From Flavobacteriia bacterium (lineage in GTDB: Bacteria; Bacteroidota; Bacteroidia; Flavobacteriales_D; Crocinitomicaceae), in NCBI GenBank assembly GCA_947464135.1, contig CANHVK010000015.1:1-37608 (forward strand): a stretch of DNA of 37,608 nt. The letters run 5' to 3'. This document shows, in pieces, positions 7,984 to 18,925 of the stretch (the first letter of the stretch is position 1; each line of letters starts with the position of its first letter). The notes beneath the pieces are model-generated. The model ran no database searches and had not been told where the DNA came from. It worked only from the letters and a program-made list of their open reading frames with translations. A program made the position numbers and the translations under genes.

Positions 7984-8145
7984 CTAAAACAAGCCTTTGA
8001 TAAACTGATAATCCTTTTGGGATTTGTTGGGAATGTTAACTACTTCTTTGTCTTTTCCTAACGTTGCTGTTAATACAGCTAAATCAATCAAATAACGTAC
8101 TACAGTAAAAAATAGAACAATGTCAATTAAAATAATCCAGAACAT
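7984..8145 (-). CDS. 53-residue single-span membrane peptide, candidate oxidase small subunit
   Basis: A short ORF below common length cut-offs, starting seven bases after the stop of the upstream cytochrome gene and on the same strand. The protein begins MFWIILIDIVLFFTVVRYLI, a clear membrane segment (residues 2-28), followed by a lysine-rich polar tail ending in FIKGLF. Tight spacing and gene order imply cotranslation with the two haem subunits. Canonical bd oxidases have small one-helix subunits (CydX in Escherichia coli, about 37 residues) encoded just after cydAB, and cbb3 oxidases have CcoQ, so this is a positional and structural analogue. I see no sequence similarity strong enough to call it CydX. 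The operon terminator follows 28 bp downstream. Confidence 0.72.
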   Translation of the reverse strand: MFWIILIDIVLFFTVVRYLIDLAVLTATLGKDKEVVNIPNKSQKDYQFIKGLF

Positions 8146-8152
8146 AAACTTA

Positions 8153-9481
8153 TTATTTTGAGTTAATACTTAAAATGTATTTTGATAGTTCATCTAAATC
8201 ACCCTCTGAAAGAGAACCAAAGGAAGGCATCTGAGGATAATCTGGACGTTTCTTACCAGGAGCCTTAATCCACGCTTTCAATCCATCTCTATTTTCTTTA
8301 TAAATAGATACCATTTCAGTCATTGGAGGACCAACTAATTTTTCTTTCTCTTGATGACACGAAGAACAATTTTTCTTAAATAATCCTGCACCAACGGCAA
8401 ATTCACCTAAAGTTGTATCTGCCTCAACCGTTTCAATTACGGGATGTAAACGTGCATCTTCAGATTGTTTTTGAAACTCTTTCGTTTTTGCAGCAACCAA
8501 TTTTTGATGAGGACTTAAAGCATTGTGTCGATACATTTGTCTACTTCCCCCGTAGATAACAAGATAAAACAAAACAAACGTAACAATCTTTCCATAATAT
8601 ATTCTATTTTCAGGCGCTGCAACCATTGATTTCCAAGTGTAAATTGCAGAAATAACGAGCATAACTCCAGCAGAAATAACACTAATAAGAACATCAAAAC
8701 CATAACCTTTAGAAGGTAACGTAAGGACAACTACAACTCCAAATAAAATTTGCAATCCTAACCCTATAAAAGCAATATTATAGCCTAATTTCATTAAATC
8801 ATTACGTGTTAATTCAGTATACAACTTCTCAACTCTGTAACGTAAACGCTTGTGATAACCAACTAAGAAAACACCTGTAATGGTGATACATGCACCCAAG
8901 AATTCAAAATAGCGAGGGAAAACATTGGGTAAAACTAACGCATCTAAAAATCCACTTACTGTACCCCACTTCTCAGGAAACATCAACAGGTTCACATTCG
9001 TTAAGAAAATAAGTGGAATAAATAAAAATATACCAACAGCAGTAGCAATAATTCCGATATGTACTCTTCTACTTTCAGCTAAAGCATCCCATGTATATTT
9101 ATGTAAATAAGTTAATAAAAAAGCAACAGTAACTAAAGGTATAATCAAAATCCAAGCGAAGCCTGTTAATGCATTTGCAGAATAAAAATAGATAGTATAA
9201 AGGGTATTAATACACAATAAAGGTGCAACACCTAAAACAACTGCCATACTTTTATTAACAGTAATTGTTTTCGCTACTTCGTGTGCAAAAGTATCATATT
9301 CTTTATTTTTTAACCCTTTGATTTGCGCCCATAAAGTAATAATAGACCCGCCGAGCATAAGATTTATAAAAATAATGTGCGCTAAAAATGATACTATTAA
9401 TAAGGTCACTAACAACCATTCAGGTAGAGGTAATTCTAACGGAATATCCTTTGGTATTGGGGTAGAAACTTTGAATAACAT
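8153..9481 (-). CDS. CydA-fold membrane protein with C-terminal cytochrome c domain
   Basis: A 442-residue protein with about eight membrane segments (residues 20-315) and a class I cytochrome c domain at 355-442, with haem-binding CSSCH at 372-376 and a likely axial Met in YPQMPSF (M418). TM1 holds LAHIIFINLMLGG, which lines up with the CydA segment containing the haem ligand His19 (YHFLFVPLTLG). TM8 ends in GGSRQMYR, a possible remnant of the CydA GRQPW motif, and VLPNVFPRYFEF occupies the place of the CydA TM5 start. The acidic pairs of CydA TM3 are not obvious here. I infer the second, more divergent subunit of a bd-superfamily oxidase (a CydA'- or CydB-like partner). The gene starts 5 bp after the stop of the partner subunit. 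Confidence 0.7.
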   Translation of the reverse strand: MLFKVSTPIPKDIPLELPLPEWLLVTLLIVSFLAHIIFINLMLGGSIITLWAQIKGLKNKEYDTFAHEVAKTITVNKSMAVVLGVAPLLCINTLYTIYFYSANALTGFAWILIIPLVTVAFLLTYLHKYTWDALAESRRVHIGIIATAVGIFLFIPLIFLTNVNLLMFPEKWGTVSGFLDALVLPNVFPRYFEFLGACITITGVFLVGYHKRLRYRVEKLYTELTRNDLMKLGYNIAFIGLGLQILFGVVVVLTLPSKGYGFDVLISVISAGVMLVISAIYTWKSMVAAPENRIYYGKIVTFVLFYLVIYGGSRQMYRHNALSPHQKLVAAKTKEFQKQSEDARLHPVIETVEADTTLGEFAVGAGLFKKNCSSCHQEKEKLVGPPMTEMVSIYKENRDGLKAWIKAPGKKRPDYPQMPSFGSLSEGDLDELSKYILSINSK

Positions 9482-9486
9482 AATTC

Positions 9487-10920
9487 TTATTTTTTAAATT
9501 GTTCAACACTGTTAACAGGGTTAATTTTCACCCCTTTTGTTTGTGCTCCTTCGACACTTTCACCTGAAGTTTGTAAACTTTTAATAAAATGTGCTAAAGC
9601 ATCTAACTCTTTTTCATTTCCTGGGAATGGAGGCATATACGTCCTACCCATATGCATATTTGGAATATATCCAGCCACTGAAGCAACATCCAATGGTTTA
9701 CCAAAACCATACATACGTTCGAAAACATAGGTAATAGAATTCACCCCTTTCGCTGTATGACATCTACTACATGTTAACATAAACACATCTCTCCCTGCTT
9801 CAATTTTATTTTCTTCCGTTATTTCAGTCGTTGATGCATACGTTGCATGTTTCAATACACCATCTTTTTTATATAATGGATAATCTTCTACACGTAATAA
9901 GTTTGAGTACATATATCCACCGATAACATAAGGTTTTCTAATAAATTCTCTCACTCTTTCAAACATCCCTAAGAAACCAAAGACAAAAAAACAAGGAATT
10001 ACCACCATCCACATTTTAATTTTACTCGGTGTAAATACACCAAACATTGCTAAAATTAAGACCGAAGAAATGGCAACGATTATTACAATTTTAAGGATAT
10101 CATAGTATTCTTGAAAGTCCATCGTACCAACAGCGGTACTCATATTCTCAACCATAGCTTCAGGTAATACATTCCAATAATTAAACGCAGCAAAAAGAGA
10201 TAATGGAGCCCATACCAAAATCCATTTTGAGGAAAGTTTTACGCTTCTTTTTAATAACTCTTTATTTTTTCGCGCAAAGAAAAAAGCTAATGTCATTCCA
10301 TAAACACCACCAACCAACATAGCAGTAGGAGTTCGAAATAAGAGTTGAGGTAAATAAATCGGATTAAAAACACCATTGATTAATGAATGGTCATTATTCC
10401 AATTTCCTGGATCCATCATAAAACCTAAAATGGCAACAATCAACGCCATAGTAATCCATGAGAAAACTGCTAAAAACCAACCAAAACGAATGTGACGCAT
10501 TTTCGAATGAAGCGATTTATTTGCGTTCTTCCAGGTTAAGAAATAGATTAAAATTAATACTACTTCGGTAACGAAAACTATCCATTCAATAAACCATGCC
10601 CAAAAGAAAACACGAATTAAACTTGCTATAGAAGAGGGACTAATTAATGCCGCAGAAAACCATATCCCCACTCCTGTCATTGCACCAATTGTTGTTGTAA
10701 TAATAAATGCAACTTTCATTTTTTTATAAATGAAGTTATCCCATTCAAAATCAGTTATTTGATTAGATGGTGAATTCTTAACTCCTTTATATTCTAACCA
10801 AGTAATATAAGGAATAAAACCTACAGCAAGTCCATGATTAATAAGGACGTGTAGGATGGCTATCACAGCGATTAAAAATCGATTGTTTAGCCAATCTAAA
10901 TGAAATAAAGGAAAATCCAT
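9487..10920 (-). CDS. CydA-like bd-superfamily oxidase subunit fused to cytochrome c
   Basis: A 477-residue membrane protein. Blocks matching CydA in order: H24 in LHVLINHG (CydA His19 region), TIGAMTGVGIWF (CydA GVATGLTMEF), E112 and E119 in IEWIVFVTEVV (CydA Glu99/Glu107), FMMDPGNW (CydA GWMQNP), FNPIYLPQLLFRTPTAMLVG (CydA TM5), and E325 in EFIRKPYVI (CydA EYGRQPWAI). The quinol-binding Q-loop between CydA TM6 and TM7 is absent, and Phe/Arg stand where the haem b558 ligand His186 should be. The C-terminus (370-477) is a cytochrome c with CSRCH at 384-388 and a likely Met ligand in YMPPFPG (M429). I infer a terminal oxidase that takes electrons from cytochrome c. The start is the ATG at 10920; the TTG at 10950 overlaps a promoter-like GAACTTTG. 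Confidence 0.75.
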   Translation of the reverse strand: MDFPLFHLDWLNNRFLIAVIAILHVLINHGLAVGFIPYITWLEYKGVKNSPSNQITDFEWDNFIYKKMKVAFIITTTIGAMTGVGIWFSAALISPSSIASLIRVFFWAWFIEWIVFVTEVVLILIYFLTWKNANKSLHSKMRHIRFGWFLAVFSWITMALIVAILGFMMDPGNWNNDHSLINGVFNPIYLPQLLFRTPTAMLVGGVYGMTLAFFFARKNKELLKRSVKLSSKWILVWAPLSLFAAFNYWNVLPEAMVENMSTAVGTMDFQEYYDILKIVIIVAISSVLILAMFGVFTPSKIKMWMVVIPCFFVFGFLGMFERVREFIRKPYVIGGYMYSNLLRVEDYPLYKKDGVLKHATYASTTEITEENKIEAGRDVFMLTCSRCHTAKGVNSITYVFERMYGFGKPLDVASVAGYIPNMHMGRTYMPPFPGNEKELDALAHFIKSLQTSGESVEGAQTKGVKINPVNSVEQFKK

Positions 10921-10940
10921 AGTAGTTAATTTTACTCCGA

Positions 10941-10948
10941 CAAAGTTC
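10941..10948 (-). promoter_or_regulatory. Candidate -7 element GAACTTTG (oxidase operon)
   Basis: One mismatch to TAnnTTTG on the minus strand, 20 bp before the ATG at 10920. No -33 match is visible at the usual distance, which would fit an activator-dependent promoter. A TTCAACTTT repeat lies about 24 bp further upstream. Confidence 0.45.
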
Positions 10949-10971
10949 AATCATTCACTTACAAATAGGTA

Positions 10972-11053: not shown

Positions 11054-11920
11054 TTACATTGTGTCAATACGACGAAACTTCTCTGGCGGAAAACCCGTTT
11101 CACGTTTAAACATTGTAATAAAATAACTAACATGTTCAAATCCAAGTTTATCTGAAATTTCATTTACAGAATCATTCGTATAATGCAATAATCGTTGTGC
11201 TTCAATTATTATTCTTTTGCGAATAATCTCTCCTGCTGTCTTACCTGTCTCTTCTTTACAAATTTTATTTAGGTAATTCGGACTAAGATGCATTTGTTCT
11301 GCAAAATCGCAAGGGAGTTTGTATTTATCAAAATACTTATCAACTAAACTTTCAAACTCTATTATTCTTTCTCGTTTTATGCTCTTCACATAGGTATTAG
11401 GAACGATGGAAAAAGCACGATCAACTTGAAATAATAATATGTTTAAGTAAGATCTCAACACTTTACTACTTGTTTGTTGATGCGTTAAAAACTCATCATA
11501 CATAAAATTTAAAATGTCAAATGATTTTTGAAATTGATTATTATTCAATCGAATGCAAGGTTTTGATTCTTGTTTCAAAAAATCAAATTGATATAAAACG
11601 TTGTTATTGTAACGTAAGGAAAAAAAATCTTCTGTAAAACAGATTACTTTTCCTTTTGCTATTTTATCTATTTGTAATTTATTTACACTTTGGGGTTTGA
11701 TAACAATTGCTTTAGGTTGATCAATAATAACTTTGTGGTTATCTATAATCATTTCTCCAACAGCATTCTCAACGAGATAAAGCGAAAAATAAGTTGATTT
11801 ATGGGGATATTCAAGAATTGGGTGTTTTTCAAGTATTCCTTCTAAATCTTCCATCCATAAATTCTTCACTCCTTGTCCAAACATACCAATCGTGCGTACT
11901 GGTATTTCAGATGAAAACAT
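11054..11920 (-). CDS. AraC-family transcriptional regulator
   Basis: A 288-residue regulator with an N-terminal cupin-like sensing region (about 20-150) and a C-terminal double helix-turn-helix (about 190-285). Typical AraC signatures are LHLSPNYLNKICKEETGKT in the first HTH region and SDKLGFEHVSYFITMFKRET in the second, ending with FPPEKFRR. The ligand is unknown. It lies between the SCO/GxCYL pair and the oxidase operon, all on the minus strand. The motif TTCAACTTT occurs twice in the 133-bp gap after it and once in the gap before it, so I infer that it controls the oxidase genes and perhaps itself. Only 40 bp separate it from the preceding stop codon, so it may also be cotranscribed with the SCO operon. 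Confidence 0.92.
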   Translation of the reverse strand: MFSSEIPVRTIGMFGQGVKNLWMEDLEGILEKHPILEYPHKSTYFSLYLVENAVGEMIIDNHKVIIDQPKAIVIKPQSVNKLQIDKIAKGKVICFTEDFFSLRYNNNVLYQFDFLKQESKPCIRLNNNQFQKSFDILNFMYDEFLTHQQTSSKVLRSYLNILLFQVDRAFSIVPNTYVKSIKRERIIEFESLVDKYFDKYKLPCDFAEQMHLSPNYLNKICKEETGKTAGEIIRKRIIIEAQRLLHYTNDSVNEISDKLGFEHVSYFITMFKRETGFPPEKFRRIDTM

Positions 11921-11926
11921 AAAATA

Positions 11927-11964
11927 TTGATTTTAAAGTGGATAATTCAACTTTCTAAAATCAA
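11927..11964. repeat. Inverted repeat between GxCYL gene stop and araC start
   Basis: TTGATTTTAAAGT (11927-11939) faces ACTTTCTAAAATCAA (11950-11964) with a short spacer and a two-base bulge. It covers the stop codon of the upstream gene and contains the third TTCAACTTT copy. It could be a weak terminator of the SCO operon or an operator for the AraC gene. Confidence 0.5.
11946..11954 (-). promoter_or_regulatory. Candidate AraC-type operator, copy 3
   Basis: Third AAAGTTGAA on the minus strand, 25 bp before the AraC ATG. Its position is compatible with autoregulation. Confidence 0.35.
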
Positions 11965-12338
11965 CATGTTTTTGGAGGATGAAAAAATCGAAACGTATTT
12001 TGACTACGATAGAAATTCTGATAAAGTTTATTTAATGTTTGATTTGAATTTATGATCTCCATATTTGGAATTTCATTTACATACTCTTTTGAAATAAATA
12101 ATTGAATTTCCTTCAATTTAAAATCTGGAAATTTATGTTCTTGCTTATCTACTTTTTTAAATTGTTTGTCTAAATAACAGGAACCTTTACAAACAGGAAT
12201 TTTATCAAATCGATTAATACAAAGATTACTTTCAATATAAGCGCGATTTAAACAAAAATCAATTAATACGAAGGTCTTATAAGTAGCACTAACTACAAAA
12301 ACAGTAACTAAAAGATATGTTATTACCTTCTTAATCAT
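11961..12338 (-). CDS. Small membrane-anchored GxCYL/HPP protein 1
   Basis: A 125-residue protein with an N-terminal membrane segment (about 5-27) and a periplasmic part carrying C40, C50 and C54 in VCKGSCYLDKQ, with a C-terminal FFHPPKTC. A paralogue with the same layout (a Cys, then NCNGKCYLAKQ, ending FHPPTV) is encoded at 13708. I recognise this as a Bacteroidota family of uncharacterised small proteins, but I know of no assigned function. The CxxxC pair matches the spacing of SCO copper sites, and the terminal HPP could add ligands. Its ATG overlaps the SCO stop by 4 bp (ATGA), so the two are translationally coupled, which supports a shared role in thiol or copper handling. Confidence 0.75.
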   Translation of the reverse strand: MIKKVITYLLVTVFVVSATYKTFVLIDFCLNRAYIESNLCINRFDKIPVCKGSCYLDKQFKKVDKQEHKFPDFKLKEIQLFISKEYVNEIPNMEIINSNQTLNKLYQNFYRSQNTFRFFHPPKTC

Positions 12339-12946
12339 TCTTTAACCAATAATTCAATGTCTTTGATTAAGCGTTTTGTTTCCTTTTTGTTTGTACCATC
12401 ATAAACTCCACGAATATGTCTATGTTTATCGACTAACAACAAACCACCACCATGAATATAACCACCTGGTGCAGTGCTGTCTTCTCCCGCTATCGTAAAA
12501 TACCCATTTTCTGCAATGTCATAAATTTCTTTCTTTTCTCCTGTTACAAAATGCCATTTTGAATGAGAAATTCCCAATCTATTTGCATATGCTTTAAGTT
12601 TCTGAATAGTATCATGTTCAGGATCAATAGTATGCGACATGAAAGCAATGCGATTATTATTTAGATAATGCTTATACACTTTCTCTGTTTCTTTGGTCAT
12701 TTTAGGGCATATCGTTGGACAATCCAAAAATATGAAAGAGGCAACGTATATTTTATCTTTAAATGTATTATTATTAATTAGTTGATTATTTTGATTTCTA
12801 AATTCAAAATTTGGAACAATAGGATAATTGGTATCATTTCCGACAATTATAGGATCTCCTAAAATGGGCAATTTTTTGTCCGTTGAAGACAAATTACAAC
12901 CAACTAGTAACACCAAAAAATTACAAAATATAATTAGTCGAAACAT
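12335..12946 (-). CDS. SCO1/SenC family lipoprotein (copper chaperone / thiol protein)
   Basis: A 203-residue lipoprotein (lipobox LLVGC, C17) with a thioredoxin-like fold. The SCO metal site is complete: CPTIC in FLDCPTICPKM and the distant His in YIHGGGLLLVD. SCO proteins deliver copper to the CuA site of cytochrome oxidase or act as thiol-disulphide reductases in the periplasm; here the protein is probably anchored to a membrane facing the periplasm. It heads an operon with a GxCYL/HPP protein and possibly the AraC regulator. The nearby oxidase is bd-like and needs no copper, so either this SCO serves a distant copper oxidase or it works in the copper cluster on the other side. A one-mismatch -7 element, TAATTTTA, lies just upstream. 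Confidence 0.92.
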   Translation of the reverse strand: MFRLIIFCNFLVLLVGCNLSSTDKKLPILGDPIIVGNDTNYPIVPNFEFRNQNNQLINNNTFKDKIYVASFIFLDCPTICPKMTKETEKVYKHYLNNNRIAFMSHTIDPEHDTIQKLKAYANRLGISHSKWHFVTGEKKEIYDIAENGYFTIAGEDSTAPGGYIHGGGLLLVDKHRHIRGVYDGTNKKETKRLIKDIELLVKE

Positions 12947-14301: not shown

Positions 14302-15336
14302 ATGAAACTTTTAGGGTGGATCGTAATACTATTATTTCTAAATCAAGTAATAGCACAAAACGACACAACAAATTATAGCGTTTCCTGTCATTGTATTAGG
14401 AACTTAACTCCGTCGGGTGTAATGATTAGTCATGTGCATCCAAAGTCAGAATGGATGGTAAGTTATCGTTTTACCCAAATGAACATGGGAAAACCGACTA
14501 GTACCTCATCAGATATTTACAATCAATATTTGACGTATACACCATCCATGCGAATGAATATGCACATGCTGATGGCGATGGTAGGTATTACAGATCGATT
14601 GACAGTAATGGGTATGTTTCATTACATGCAAAATAGCATGCCGATGGAAATGATGACAACACATGATCACGATCATTCTCATGCAGATGGACACTCGTCT
14701 ATGGATATGCACACCGATGGATTAGGAGACACAAAACTTTTTGCGATGTATGGGTTGGTTAAAACCGATAACCAGCAATTACTTATTTCCAATGGGGTAA
14801 GTATACCAACTGGTAATTTCTCTGTTCAGGGATCCGCATCAGACATGTTATACGAAGGAAAACGTTATCCCTATATGATGCAATTGGGTTCTGGTTCATG
14901 GGAATACCTGCCAAACATCACCTATGTTTACCAAAAAGAAGACGTAGCATTGAGTTACCAAACAGCTGGAGTAATTCGTTTGAATAACAATACAAATGGT
15001 TATCGGCTTGGAAATGAATGGTACAACACTACTTGGATTGGTTATAATTGGTGGGAGAATATCGGATCTACCCTTCGTGTAGAAGGAACTATTTCTGAAA
15101 CAATTCACGGACAAGATCAACAAGTTTATACATACAATGAAATAGGAGCCAATCCTGCAAATTATGGAGGAACCCGTCTATCTGCTTTTTTGGGCACGTC
15201 GTATGAGCTAGAACTAGGATCATTAACAAATTGTAGAATTGCCCTAGAGTATGGAATTCCATTCTATCAAAAATTAAATGGGATTCAAAACAAGGCAACA
15301 TCTACTTGGAATGCATCATTAAACTTTTCATTTTAA
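14302..15336 (+). CDS. Met/His-rich outer-membrane beta-barrel protein, likely copper-related
   Basis: A 344-residue protein with a signal peptide (residues 1-18, ending VIAQ) and a beta-barrel-like pattern of short amphipathic strands ending in LNFSF, the aromatic C-terminus of outer-membrane proteins. It resembles the 'transporter' barrels grouped with the phenol MetA-type family (inference). Its most striking part is residues 60-137: many Met and His, including MRMNMHMLMAM, then HDHDHSHADGHSSMDMH, typical of copper or silver binding. A CHC motif (C29, H30, C31) follows the signal peptide. It leads a tight run with an MbnP lipoprotein (5 bp later) and a small cytochrome (2 bp later), so I infer an outer-membrane step of copper handling. 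Confidence 0.78.
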   Translation: MKLLGWIVILLFLNQVIAQNDTTNYSVSCHCIRNLTPSGVMISHVHPKSEWMVSYRFTQMNMGKPTSTSSDIYNQYLTYTPSMRMNMHMLMAMVGITDRLTVMGMFHYMQNSMPMEMMTTHDHDHSHADGHSSMDMHTDGLGDTKLFAMYGLVKTDNQQLLISNGVSIPTGNFSVQGSASDMLYEGKRYPYMMQLGSGSWEYLPNITYVYQKEDVALSYQTAGVIRLNNNTNGYRLGNEWYNTTWIGYNWWENIGSTLRVEGTISETIHGQDQQVYTYNEIGANPANYGGTRLSAFLGTSYELELGSLTNCRIALEYGIPFYQKLNGIQNKATSTWNASLNFSF

Positions 15337-15341
15337 CTACT

Positions 15342-16115
15342 ATGAGAATTTCAATTTTATTTATTACACTTTTATTGGTTGCTTTTTCATGCAGAAAAGA
15401 AGAAATAGTAACTAATACTCCAACAACTGATAATACTCCAAAAGGACGTTTGGTTTTTCACCTACATACTTTCATTGGAGATTCTGAAGTAGATGGATAT
15501 GATATAGATATGACTACTCCTGAGGGTAGAAAAATCTCATTGAATAGAGCGCAGTTTTATATAACAAATGTTCAATTAGTAAAATTAGATGGAAGTATTT
15601 ACAATGTTCCAAGCAAAGGAGCATTAAAAGTATTCGAATCGGAAAGTGTGGTAATTGGCGATGTGAATGTAGGCAACTACAAATCCATACGTTTTAAATT
15701 AGGCTTGATTCCAGAAACAAATTTGCTATTACCAACTGTAGAAGGGTATTCAAATTTGCTAAATCAATCAGAAATGTGGTTTAATAATACTGCCAAAGCT
15801 AATGAATATGTGTTTTTGAATTTTGCTGGAAAAATCGATACAACCAAAGCGATGAATGGGGAAAAAATTCCCTTTGAATACAAAATTGGCGGGAATGATA
15901 ACTTAGTTACTATTGAAATGCCTGAACAAGGGTTGACAATTTTAGAAGGTCAAATTGGGTACGGACATATGATCATTGATTATAGTAAATTCTTTACAAA
16001 CATCGATTTAACCAAAAACGAAAACCTAACGATTCAAAGTTTAGCGGATAACAAAAAAACCATCGTAACAACCCTTAAAACGAACATTGCATCCATGTTC
16101 AAATACGAAAATTAA
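15342..16115 (+). CDS. MbnP-like lipoprotein 1
   Basis: A 257-residue lipoprotein (lipobox VAFSC, C17) of the MbnP family of periplasmic copper-binding beta-sandwich proteins. Supporting motifs: RLVFHLHTFIGD near the mature N-terminus, SLNRAQFYITNVQLVKLDG (a conserved 'F.Y.ISN..L...DG' block), GNYKSIRFKLG, and QSEMWFNN with W146 in the region where the family has its reactive tryptophan. In methanotroph MbnP a Trp is converted to kynurenine by MbnH and then helps bind copper. Here the surrounding WSWKSGY consensus has drifted to MWFNN, so activity of this copy is less certain than of copy 2. The start is the ATG at 15342, 5 bp after the barrel stop; the longer frame begins inside that gene. 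Confidence 0.8.
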   Translation: MRISILFITLLLVAFSCRKEEIVTNTPTTDNTPKGRLVFHLHTFIGDSEVDGYDIDMTTPEGRKISLNRAQFYITNVQLVKLDGSIYNVPSKGALKVFESESVVIGDVNVGNYKSIRFKLGLIPETNLLLPTVEGYSNLLNQSEMWFNNTAKANEYVFLNFAGKIDTTKAMNGEKIPFEYKIGGNDNLVTIEMPEQGLTILEGQIGYGHMIIDYSKFFTNIDLTKNENLTIQSLADNKKTIVTTLKTNIASMFKYEN

Positions 16116-16117
16116 AA

Positions 16118-16498
16118 ATGAAAAAAGCACTTTTCATAGTTTCTGTTTCTCTCGCCTTTGTAGCTTGTAAAAAAGGTACTACCGAAGTGGTGTGTAACCC
16201 ACCTGCAACGGTATCTTTTAAAAATGACATTCAACCCATATTCAATGCAAATTGCAATACTTCAGGATGTCACTCAGGAAACAAACCTGCGGGAAATTTA
16301 AACCTTGAAAGTGCAAATGCTTATGCTAATTTAATGGACTCTAAAAGTGGATATATCGACCTTTTACATCCAGAAAATAGCATTTTGTATGTTTCCATAA
16401 CTTCAAAAACGAATCCAATGCCACCATCTGGAAAATTAGATGAATGTGTAACAGGATTAATTTTGAAATGGATACAGCAAGGAGCGAAAAAAAATTAG
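16118..16498 (+). CDS. Small cytochrome-like lipoprotein with CX4CH motif
   Basis: A 126-residue lipoprotein (lipobox AFVAC, C17) with one cytochrome c-like domain. The motif is C46-NTSG-C51-H52, four residues between the cysteines instead of two, within IQPIFNANCNTSGCHSG. A likely axial Met is in NPMPPSGKL and the domain ends LILKWIQQGAK, as in small Bacteroidota and planctomycete-type cytochromes with 'W...GA'. The protein at 18578 is a paralogue with a normal CVSCH. Whether CX4CH holds haem covalently here is not certain; the family resemblance suggests it does. The gene starts 2 bp after the MbnP-like gene, so it is cotranscribed and may carry electrons to or from the copper protein system. 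Confidence 0.78.
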   Translation: MKKALFIVSVSLAFVACKKGTTEVVCNPPATVSFKNDIQPIFNANCNTSGCHSGNKPAGNLNLESANAYANLMDSKSGYIDLLHPENSILYVSITSKTNPMPPSGKLDECVTGLILKWIQQGAKKN

Positions 16499-16645: not shown

Positions 16646-17467
16646 ATGAAAAAAGTAAAATTAACGATCGTTGCAGCAGCAACATTAATCTTAGGATTAA
16701 CATCTTGTAAAAAAGAGGAAACTACACCTACAACAACTACACCTACTGGTAATGGTACTGTAAATATCGAATTTGCACACAAATACGGTATGATGAACGA
16801 AAATAATTTTGAACTTGAAAAAGAATTCATTCATCCAATGAAAAAAGACACGATGTATTTCTCTAAATTCAAGTATTTCTTTACGAATGTACGTTTGAAA
16901 AAAGCGGATGGTACTTATTGGACAGAAACTGAAAGCTATCATTTAATTGACTTAGCAAAACCAAGTTCATTATCTTTAAGTTTAGCAAATGTACCTGCTG
17001 GTGATTATACTTCTTTGGAATATACTTTAGGTGTTGATAGTGCTAGGAATGTATCTGGAGCTCAAACAGGTGATTTAGCAACTACAAACGATATGTATTG
17101 GAGCTGGAAAAGCGGTTACATTATGTTAAAAGCAGAAGGAAAATACTTAGATACTGCTAAACAAAAAACATTTGTATTCCATTTAGGAGGATTTAGCGGT
17201 GCAAATAATATCGTTACTAAACGTTCGTTAGCTCTTGAAAACACAAACAAAGTAAGTGTTTCAAACGGGAAAAAAAGTACGATCTCTATCGAAGTTAACC
17301 CAGGATTATTATGGCATACTGCAGAAACTGTAAAAAAATCGAATATGATTCATATGCCAGGTGCTAATACTATTAAAATGGCATTAGGTGATAACGGCAC
17401 TACCGGTTTTGGATTTTTTAATAGCCCTTATGGATTCTCTGTTAAAAAAGTGACTAATAATCAATAA
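16646..17467 (+). CDS. MbnP-like lipoprotein 2
   Basis: A 273-residue lipoprotein (lipobox GLTSC, C21) and a clear MbnP-family member: VNIEFAHKYG at the mature start, FSKFKYFFTNVRLKKADG, PAGDYTSLEYTLGVD and NDMYWSWKSGYIMLKAEG. The last holds W152 and W154, the conserved Trp region where MbnH forms kynurenine in methanotroph MbnP. H45, H100, H179 and H224 are possible copper ligands. The domain ends NPYGF-like (FNSPYGFSV). It probably binds copper in the periplasm or at the outer membrane. A strong terminator directly follows, so only part of the transcription should continue into the MbnH-like gene, keeping the binding protein in excess over its modifying enzyme. Confidence 0.88.
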   Translation: MKKVKLTIVAAATLILGLTSCKKEETTPTTTTPTGNGTVNIEFAHKYGMMNENNFELEKEFIHPMKKDTMYFSKFKYFFTNVRLKKADGTYWTETESYHLIDLAKPSSLSLSLANVPAGDYTSLEYTLGVDSARNVSGAQTGDLATTNDMYWSWKSGYIMLKAEGKYLDTAKQKTFVFHLGGFSGANNIVTKRSLALENTNKVSVSNGKKSTISIEVNPGLLWHTAETVKKSNMIHMPGANTIKMALGDNGTTGFGFFNSPYGFSVKKVTNNQ

Positions 17468-17519: not shown

Positions 17520-18539
17520 ATGAAATACATTTACATCCTACTCATACTTTTTATAACATTTTCTTGCCAAAAAGAAGAAGCAATAATTTCTCCTGTTAAT
17601 TCTTTCACCTTTGATCAACCTACTCATTTTCCTAAGCCAGTCTATTCATATGCCAACAATCCACTAACAAAAGAGGGGTTTGAACTAGGACGTTTTTTAT
17701 TTTACGATCCCATACTTTCACTTGATAGTTCTATATCATGTAGCTCTTGTCATGCTCAACCTCATGGTTTTGCAGACCACAATATTCCGTTAAGTAAAGG
17801 AGTGAATGGAAAATTTGGCAAACGAAATGCACCCGCTCTGATGAACTTAGCTTGGTCACCCGCATTTATGTGGGACGGAGGTGTAAATCACATTGAAGTG
17901 CAACCATTAGTTCCTTTAACAGATGAACATGAAATGGGAGAATCAATAGCAAATATTGTCATTAAATTAAATCGTAGCACCTTTTACAAAAAGAAGTTTA
18001 AAGAAGCATTTGGTATAGAAACAATTACTGATCAAAAGCTACTTCATGCGTTGGCTCAATTTACATCGATGTTAGTTTCAGCTAATTCAAAATACGATCA
18101 AGTAAAGTCTGGTAAAGCAACTTTTACAGAAGATGAAAATCAAGGATATGAATTATTCAAATCTTATTGTAATACTTGTCATACAGAACCTCTTTTTACC
18201 AACTATTCATATCGTAATAGTGGTTTAGAAAAAGAAATTATAGATATTGGAAGAGAGCGTATTACCCTAGAACCAACTGACAAAGGAAAATTCAAAGTTC
18301 CTTCCTTACGCAATGTAGAATTTACTTATCCTTACATGCATAATGGAAGTATTTTTAACCTAAAAGAATTGATGAAATTTAAAGCTAATGGAATACAAAT
18401 TTCAAATACAACAGATCCATTAATTATGAATGGTTTTCCATTATCTGATAAAGACCAAGCGGATCTTATTGCTTTTCTTAAAACATTGAGTGATTTTTCT
18501 TATATCGGCAATGTGAAATATGCAGAACCAATACGTTAA
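17520..18539 (+). CDS. MbnH/MauG/cytochrome c peroxidase-type di-haem lipoprotein
   Basis: A 339-residue lipoprotein (lipobox ITFSC, C16) with two c-haem sites, CSSCH at 74-78 and CNTCH at 217-221, in the fold of bacterial di-haem peroxidases. Family motifs are ELGRFLFYDPILS, HGFADHN, RNAPALMNLAW, MWDGG, PLTDEHEMG, FKVPSLRNVE and YPYMHNGS. Classical members reduce peroxide; MauG and MbnH instead use a high-valent di-haem to oxidise tryptophan in a partner protein. Being adjacent to two MbnP genes strongly favours the MbnH role, oxidation of an MbnP Trp to kynurenine, though a plain peroxidase cannot be excluded. TAACTTTC (17508-17515, one mismatch to the -7 consensus) could give it a promoter of its own after the terminator. 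Confidence 0.88.
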   Translation: MKYIYILLILFITFSCQKEEAIISPVNSFTFDQPTHFPKPVYSYANNPLTKEGFELGRFLFYDPILSLDSSISCSSCHAQPHGFADHNIPLSKGVNGKFGKRNAPALMNLAWSPAFMWDGGVNHIEVQPLVPLTDEHEMGESIANIVIKLNRSTFYKKKFKEAFGIETITDQKLLHALAQFTSMLVSANSKYDQVKSGKATFTEDENQGYELFKSYCNTCHTEPLFTNYSYRNSGLEKEIIDIGRERITLEPTDKGKFKVPSLRNVEFTYPYMHNGSIFNLKELMKFKANGIQISNTTDPLIMNGFPLSDKDQADLIAFLKTLSDFSYIGNVKYAEPIR

Positions 18540-18577: not shown

Positions 18578-18925
18578 ATGAAAAAATTATTTCCAATTAC
18601 TTATATCTGTTTATTCTTTATTTCTTGTAAAAAAGAAAATACAAACACTGTAACACCCATTAATAGTAATGTAGAAAATTGTTCAAAAACAATTTCATAT
18701 AAAACTGAAATTGCACCAATGTTCAACACTTATTGTGTAAGTTGTCATTCATCAATCCAAGCAAGTGGTGGAATAAATCTCTCTGGATATAATAATACTT
18801 CAACACATGCTACTAGTTCTTTAAACTCTATCAAAAATGGATCTATGCCTCCCATGGGTTCAATTCCTGACAGTTTAATCCAAAAGTTAAATTGTTGGAT
18901 TAATCAAGGAAAGTTAAATAATTAG
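18578..18925 (+). CDS. Small cytochrome c lipoprotein
   Basis: A 115-residue lipoprotein (lipobox LFFISC, C17) with one c-type haem site CVSCH at 53-57 in APMFNTYCVSCHSS and a likely axial Met in GSMPPMGS. It ends NCWINQGK, parallel to the KWIQQGAK end of the CX4CH protein at 16118, of which it is a paralogue. It lies 38 bp after the MbnH-like gene on the same strand. A role as electron carrier for the di-haem enzyme is the natural inference. It is the last gene of the copper-related cluster. Confidence 0.85.
   Translation: MKKLFPITYICLFFISCKKENTNTVTPINSNVENCSKTISYKTEIAPMFNTYCVSCHSSIQASGGINLSGYNNTSTHATSSLNSIKNGSMPPMGSIPDSLIQKLNCWINQGKLNN

Follow-up and report, generated by a model that had tools for sequence, protein, structure and literature searches.

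To our knowledge, the characterised cytochrome bd enzymes use quinol, and within the bd superfamily the OR-C family of Murali et al. 2021 reportedly has cytochrome c in the enzyme and no quinol site. In print, the superfamily comprises the families qOR, OR-C and OR-N (PMC10839748, PMC12342949, PMC3578206, PMC13189123). OR-N enzymes, the CydAA' of Nitrospirota and Nitrospinota, are presented there as putative cytochrome c oxidases, experimentally unconfirmed (PMC10839748, PMC12342949), and the bd-like protein of Nitrospina has no quinol residues (PMC3578206). As a kind, pairs of the superfamily that do not use quinol (OR-C, OR-N) are known in outline. Here we describe a pair of adjoining genes, A and B, in a stretch of 37,608 nucleotides (nt) from a Flavobacteriia bacterium (contig CANHVK010000015.1, hereafter the window), together with the family to which it belongs. 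From sequence and structure prediction we think it likely that A-B is a heterodimeric, copper-free cytochrome c:O2 reductase of the bd superfamily in which the usual quinol site has been lost.

The computed features of this pair are the fold and residues of the superfamily, the absence of the Q-loop and of the haem b558 ligands, a haem c motif on both chains, and a strict pairing of A with B. The two open reading frames (ORFs) lie on the minus strand, 5 nt apart (Table 1). The initial annotation had set a two-gene pair at 7984-10948; the pair is indeed found at that place, but the left edge at 7984 lies past the end of B. B has 442 amino acids (aa), and A has 487 aa counted from a TTG or 477 aa counted from an ATG at 10920. 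The ATG is the probable start, as alignable homology begins there in many relatives, and residue numbers of A count from it. A profile scan of genome contigs found at least 579 stretches encoding the A-B family, and the best 80 of these form our set of loci, from which 44 A sequences (43 loci and the window) and 47 B sequences (46 loci and the window) were aligned.

Both A and B are members of the cytochrome bd superfamily. The profile of the 44 A sequences finds subunit I of the Geobacillus bd oxidase (5doq) at an E-value (E) of 1.6e-6, and 12 of 22 wider A homologues are matched directly by PF01654, with a best E of 8.8e-21. In profile comparisons, A resembles B (E 1.2e-15) and B resembles CydA (E 2.2e-7). 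The hhalign comparison of B with CydB gave no similarity (E 0.18, probability 0.3%), which ruled out CydB as its ancestor; on profile evidence, B is a paralogue of CydA and no CydB. AlphaFold models of the two chains reach a mean predicted local distance difference test score (pLDDT) of 79.9 for A and 91.3 for B. At E<=0.001, Foldseek returned 8 matches for A and 4 for B, all bd oxidase subunit I chains, an identity taken from the name for some chains and from length and chain for others, and chains of Alternative complex III enter the list of A solely at E 0.1 or worse. The initial annotation had called both proteins CydA-like, and its claim is upheld: the fold and profile results oppose an unrelated membrane-cytochrome family for either chain, and neither predicted fold is without the CydA architecture.

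Aligned with E. coli CydA from NC_000913, A retains the landmarks of a catalytic subunit. H24, E112 and E119 stand at CydA H19, E99 and E107, G79 and T82-G83 form the GxxTG block, and in the EFIRKP sequence of A, residues E325, R328 and P330 correspond to E445, R448 and P450 in the EYGRQP of CydA. H24, E112, E119, E325 and R328 are invariant in all 44 aligned family members, and A is, by this alignment, expected to bind the haem pair of the active site. In A, a gap stands in place of the Q-loop. The haem b558 histidine H186 faces F195 (Phe in 42/44, F or L across A), beside R196, which is present in 44/44, and the position of the second b558 ligand, M393, is not kept. These alignments agree with the earlier description of A from its sequence, namely a histidine in the first transmembrane helix (TM1), a GVxTG-like block, a glutamate pair and a degenerate EFIRKPY, with the Q-loop missing and Phe/Arg where the b558 histidine would be.

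At the C-terminal end, both chains finish in a class I cytochrome c, as had been proposed. CxxCH is found in 44/44 A sequences, along with an invariant M429 (44/44), and in 38/47 B sequences. Judged by record titles, the nine B rows that do not carry it come from Alphaproteobacteria (5), Ignavibacteria (2), Aminicenantes (1) and Bacteriovoracaceae (1). A and B each show 8 long predicted helices with an excess of K+R in alternate loops (loop boundaries were set by hand), so that the C-termini of both are predicted to lie outside; for this orientation we assumed that the N-terminus is outside as in CydA.

The second chain keeps part of the same framework. The H19 equivalent is present in 47/47 B sequences, and the SRQMYR block of B lines up with VREFIR of A, its two arginines being conserved in 47/47; the TM1 histidine and a remnant GGSRQMYR had both been noticed in B beforehand. 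The glutamates are gone: in the 14 B rows of a 67-row alignment, the E99 position holds I, V or L and the E107 position A or V, and at the E445 position B has His in 34/47 and Gln in 13/47, the window being among the latter. No Met is kept at the M393 position. With E99, E107 and E445 missing, B is probably a non-catalytic partner; the active site likely lies in A alone, and three haem b/d pockets would not be expected. B position 193 (window 8903-8905), which corresponds to the b558 ligand H186, holds His in 41/47, Glu in 5/47 (the window included) and Phe in 1/47.

Among the described systems, A-B agrees with the reported definition of OR-C in having cytochrome c in the enzyme and no quinol site. 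Compared with canonical CydAB (qOR), A is alike in the subunit I fold and in H19, E99, E107, E445 and R448, whereas A-B has neither Q-loop nor b558 ligands, carries haem c fused to both chains, and has a CydA paralogue in the place of CydB. OR-N CydAA' resembles A-B, by description, in having two CydA-type chains, no quinol residues and cytochrome c as the proposed donor (PMC10839748, PMC12342949, PMC3578206). The Nitrospina bd-like protein has 14 helices, three of which replace the Q-loop (PMC3578206), whereas A has its 8 long predicted helices and the fused haem c. Limited searches of open-licence papers found no bench work on the A-B lineage, and in the same literature no paper was found for OR-C1 with cytochrome bd or for OR-C with CydA in Bacteroidota.

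The history of the two chains was followed in a tree of 203 columns and 67 rows (14 A, 14 B, 13 quinol CydA and 26 distant chains). Three sides separate: quinol CydA with support 100/97 (13 rows), A with 97/95 and B with 100/99. The A and B sides then split in a matching way: A of the window kind parts from the distant A-like chains with support 96/93, and B of the window kind from the distant B-like chains at an open fork (85/73). This fits an old duplication followed by joint descent of A and B as a pair. The program flagged long branches at the B of L159 and at the join of the B-like rows, and both were retained in the tree.

A-B pairing is strict. By tblastn, B follows directly after A in 79 of the 80 loci; in the remaining one, L102, A is alone and the contig ends after it. 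The ORF caller had overlooked A or B in 8 of the 80, and tblastn recovered both genes in 7 and A alone in L102. In the 72 loci with both genes called, their spacing goes from a 124 nt overlap to a 223 nt gap. According to record titles, the loci span Bacteroidota, Ignavibacteria, Planctomycetes, Alpha- and Gammaproteobacteria, Oligoflexia and Bacteriovoracaceae, Zixibacteria/GN15, Acidobacteria, Aminicenantes, Verrucomicrobia and KSB1, though many are metagenome bins and individual assignments may be wrong. Within the phylum of the window, A is matched in 4 of 99 genomes of relatives and, in an even draw across the phylum, in 28 of 395 genomes (the window's own counted in each case), 22 of the 28 matches being in the membrane part. 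G210, G214, G217, G337, G347 and G446, where the match covers only the haem c part or an unrelated stretch, were rejected as relatives and left uncounted. Four annotated plasmid records label A as c-type cytochrome or cytochrome c and the next gene as cytochrome C or hypothetical protein. On the Agrobacterium plasmid pLN1-183666, typed as conjugative (L165:8001-10564), the A-B pair is followed by an ATP-binding protein, a response regulator and tra genes.

Distant pairs from two other groups of the phylum bear on the electron donor. Their genes form one operon, running B-like, Rieske, cytochrome b, A-like in 3/3 regions (L158, L159, L163), with Rieske and cytochrome b confirmed by Pfam in L158 and L159; in smaller loci of both groups, a cytochrome b gene stands upstream of the A-like gene in 6/6, as judged by eye. 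The distant B-like chains have an extra C-terminal hydrophobic stretch in place of cytochrome c. In the first group (L158:3696-7905, L163:4244-8462), as in A-B, the A-like chain bears haem c together with the full set of bd active-site residues and is accompanied by a B-like chain; unlike A-B, these pairs are encoded with Rieske and cytochrome b, and their B-like chains have no haem c. Since L158 and L163 contain no further ORF of >=100 aa with CxxCH, the haem c of the A-like chain would be the natural acceptor from the Rieske protein, and such an operon may possibly encode a complete quinol-to-O2 machine. In the second group (L159:3059-7190; A-like chains also in L018, L023 and L024), the A-like chain has no CxxCH, H19, E99 or E445 and keeps E107; here bd-type chains have perhaps become structural parts of a Rieske-cytochrome b complex. 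Other arrangements were also seen. In L161:5940-8627 and L009:88-2766, an A-like chain and a multihaem part share one frame of about 895 aa that contains 8 CxxCH, and a B-like gene lies just upstream; L008 likewise has such a fusion, and in L160:5163-8881 a single B-like gene lacking haem c comes after two tandem A-like genes. The Melioribacter paper, checked for Rieske-linked relatives, makes no mention of Rieske in its available portion.

The mechanism that we infer covers complex formation, electron donor, O2 as substrate, haem types and physiological occasion. A and B would make a membrane heterodimer. Its electron donor would be either a bc-type complex or a cytochrome c in solution, not quinol, and electrons would enter from the periplasm at the covalently bound haem c of A (and at that of B). 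From there they would pass to two haems in A, whose ligands would be the residues matching H19 and E445; at these haems O2 would be reduced to water, with protons led in via the E99/E107 region of A. B would replace CydB as structural partner and contribute a second haem c. As a copper-free enzyme, A-B may take over where haem-copper oxidases fail, for example when copper is scarce. The absence of the Q-loop and b558 ligands together with the fused haem c supports an oxidase driven by cytochrome c rather than by quinol, and the Rieske and cytochrome b genes of the distant pairs support feeding through haem c. The proposal of a cytochrome c-driven oxidase, already made in the initial annotation, gains from both, at the level of a predicted function.

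Several observations weigh against this reading. Pfam and NCBIfam match only the cytochrome c part of the window A and B, which argues against a simple reading of the membrane parts, and PF01654 directly matches 0/44 close A members and 1/47 B members. The profile comparison of A with CydA gives E 1.3e-4 at a probability of only 54%, the template modelling scores (TM-scores) of the fold matches of A and B are about 0.5, and the A model is weak near the E445 region, with pLDDT <50 at residues 328-338. The catalytic residues of A indicate a capacity, not a substrate. The degenerate second group of distant pairs, having lost ligands and haem c, indicates that the fold can persist without oxidase chemistry. 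Finally, by neighbourhood, the copper context is mostly one of Bacteroidota: among the 33 loci nearest the window, genes related to its AraC-type regulator, small CxxxC-type protein and SCO protein occur in 29, 24 and 21, and among the other 47 loci in 0, 3 and 3.

A reductase of another substrate, such as nitric oxide or peroxide, or an electron-transfer module of a larger complex built on the bd scaffold, in either case not respiring O2, is the alternative that best withstands these data, although we think it unlikely. The distant pairs in Rieske-cytochrome b operons, one group of which lacks haem ligands and haem c, demonstrate that a non-oxidase use of the fold exists. In the window family, however, the oxygen-site residues are invariant (44/44), and no known reductase for other substrates is a constant neighbour in the 80 loci, where many genes are unidentified. 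It is still less probable that A-B continues to oxidise quinol, at a novel type of site, and that its haem c is accessory. Sequence can judge the canonical quinol site only, and for the Nitrospina bd-like protein its authors kept an alternative quinol site open (PMC3578206); against this stand the loss in A of the Q-loop and of both b558 ligands and the invariance of its haem c. It is highly improbable that the two proteins form no oxidase and, produced alongside SCO, serve copper enzymes in assembly or redox sensing: the neighbours that would favour this in the 33 nearest loci fade in the other 47, yet the catalytic residues are invariant.

The cytochrome c:O2 reductase that we favour for A-B would belong to a genome of 2.3 Mb, about 84% complete, with two haem-copper oxidase subunit I genes and, within that completeness, no match to PF01654 or PF02322. 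Around the pair, the window encodes several proteins related to copper (Table 1). SCO, found in 21 of the 33 nearest loci, has a background of about 1 match per Mb in 15 relatives (42 matches in ~43.6 Mb), and by chance about 2% of such stretches would be expected to contain one, with the caveat that these background genomes differ from the genomes of the 33 loci. MbnP and MauG are a pair known from copper handling. On a plasmid of Methylosinus sp. C49 (L166:7983-17314), a distant A/B pair, a cytochrome c, a RegB-type kinase and a response regulator adjoin the methanobactin genes mbnF, mbnM and mbnC. In Thermus, the copies have GTP-binding proteins and metal-uptake binding proteins in their vicinity; in the Thermus thermophilus plasmid locus L164:5267-10662, the pair is placed between the binding protein of a metal ATP-binding cassette (ABC) transporter and GTP-binding proteins, a setting that may point to metal shortage. 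Six of ten kinases clustered near the pair contain GGxxNPF, which we take to be the RegB motif.

Table 1. Positions in the window of the A-B pair, its key sites and its neighbours.
Feature	Position	Strand	Basis and remarks
Gene A	9487..10950	-	ORF; CydA-like membrane part with 8 long predicted helices, then C-terminal class I cytochrome c
Gene B	8153..9481	-	ORF; CydA-paralogous membrane part without catalytic Glu, then C-terminal class I cytochrome c
A haem c attachment motif CSRCH, residues 384-388	9757..9771	-	Sequence
B haem c attachment motif CSSCH, residues 372-376	8354..8368	-	Sequence
A H24, equivalent of E. coli CydA H19	10849..10851	-	Alignment
A E325, equivalent of E. coli CydA E445	9946..9948	-	Alignment
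AraC-type regulator, upstream of A	11054..11920	-	PF12833
Small CxxxC-type protein	11961..12338	-	No Pfam match
SCO1/SenC-type protein with CxxxC	12335..12946	-	PF02630
MbnP	15306-16115	+	Pfam; context
Cytochrome c-type	16118-16498	+	Pfam; context
MbnP, second copy	16646-17467	+	Pfam; context
MauG-type di-haem	17520-18539	+	Pfam; context
Cytochrome c-type	18578-18925	+	PF13442, under curated cut-off; context

The copper-handling neighbours (SCO, MbnP/MauG, and the methanobactin genes in Methylosinus) suggest, less surely than the features of the chains themselves, use of A-B when copper is short. A copper-sparing role, drawn entirely from neighbouring genes, is for us a tentative idea with the balance somewhat against it; how oxidases are chosen when copper runs short has been investigated elsewhere (PMC12140626). 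More doubtful still is the full picture, in which A-B would be a separate bd lineage with haem c on both halves, a copper-free cytochrome c oxidase that replaces copper-starved haem-copper oxidases, and the sister lineage with Rieske and cytochrome b would form a single quinol-to-O2 machine, its oxidase subunit supplying the haem c that replaces cytochrome c1.

The interest of this family lies in its inferred function, in the haem c on both chains and in its Rieske-linked relatives. Non-quinol branches of the bd superfamily have been proposed from phylogeny, and the A-B family, being compact, two-gene and common, makes a bd scaffold run on cytochrome c directly testable, with the operons of Rieske, cytochrome b and A-B type chains as a second test. 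As the Pfam bd model misses close A members altogether and the four plasmid records treat A as a plain cytochrome c, surveys of aerobic potential based on PF01654 would overlook A-B.

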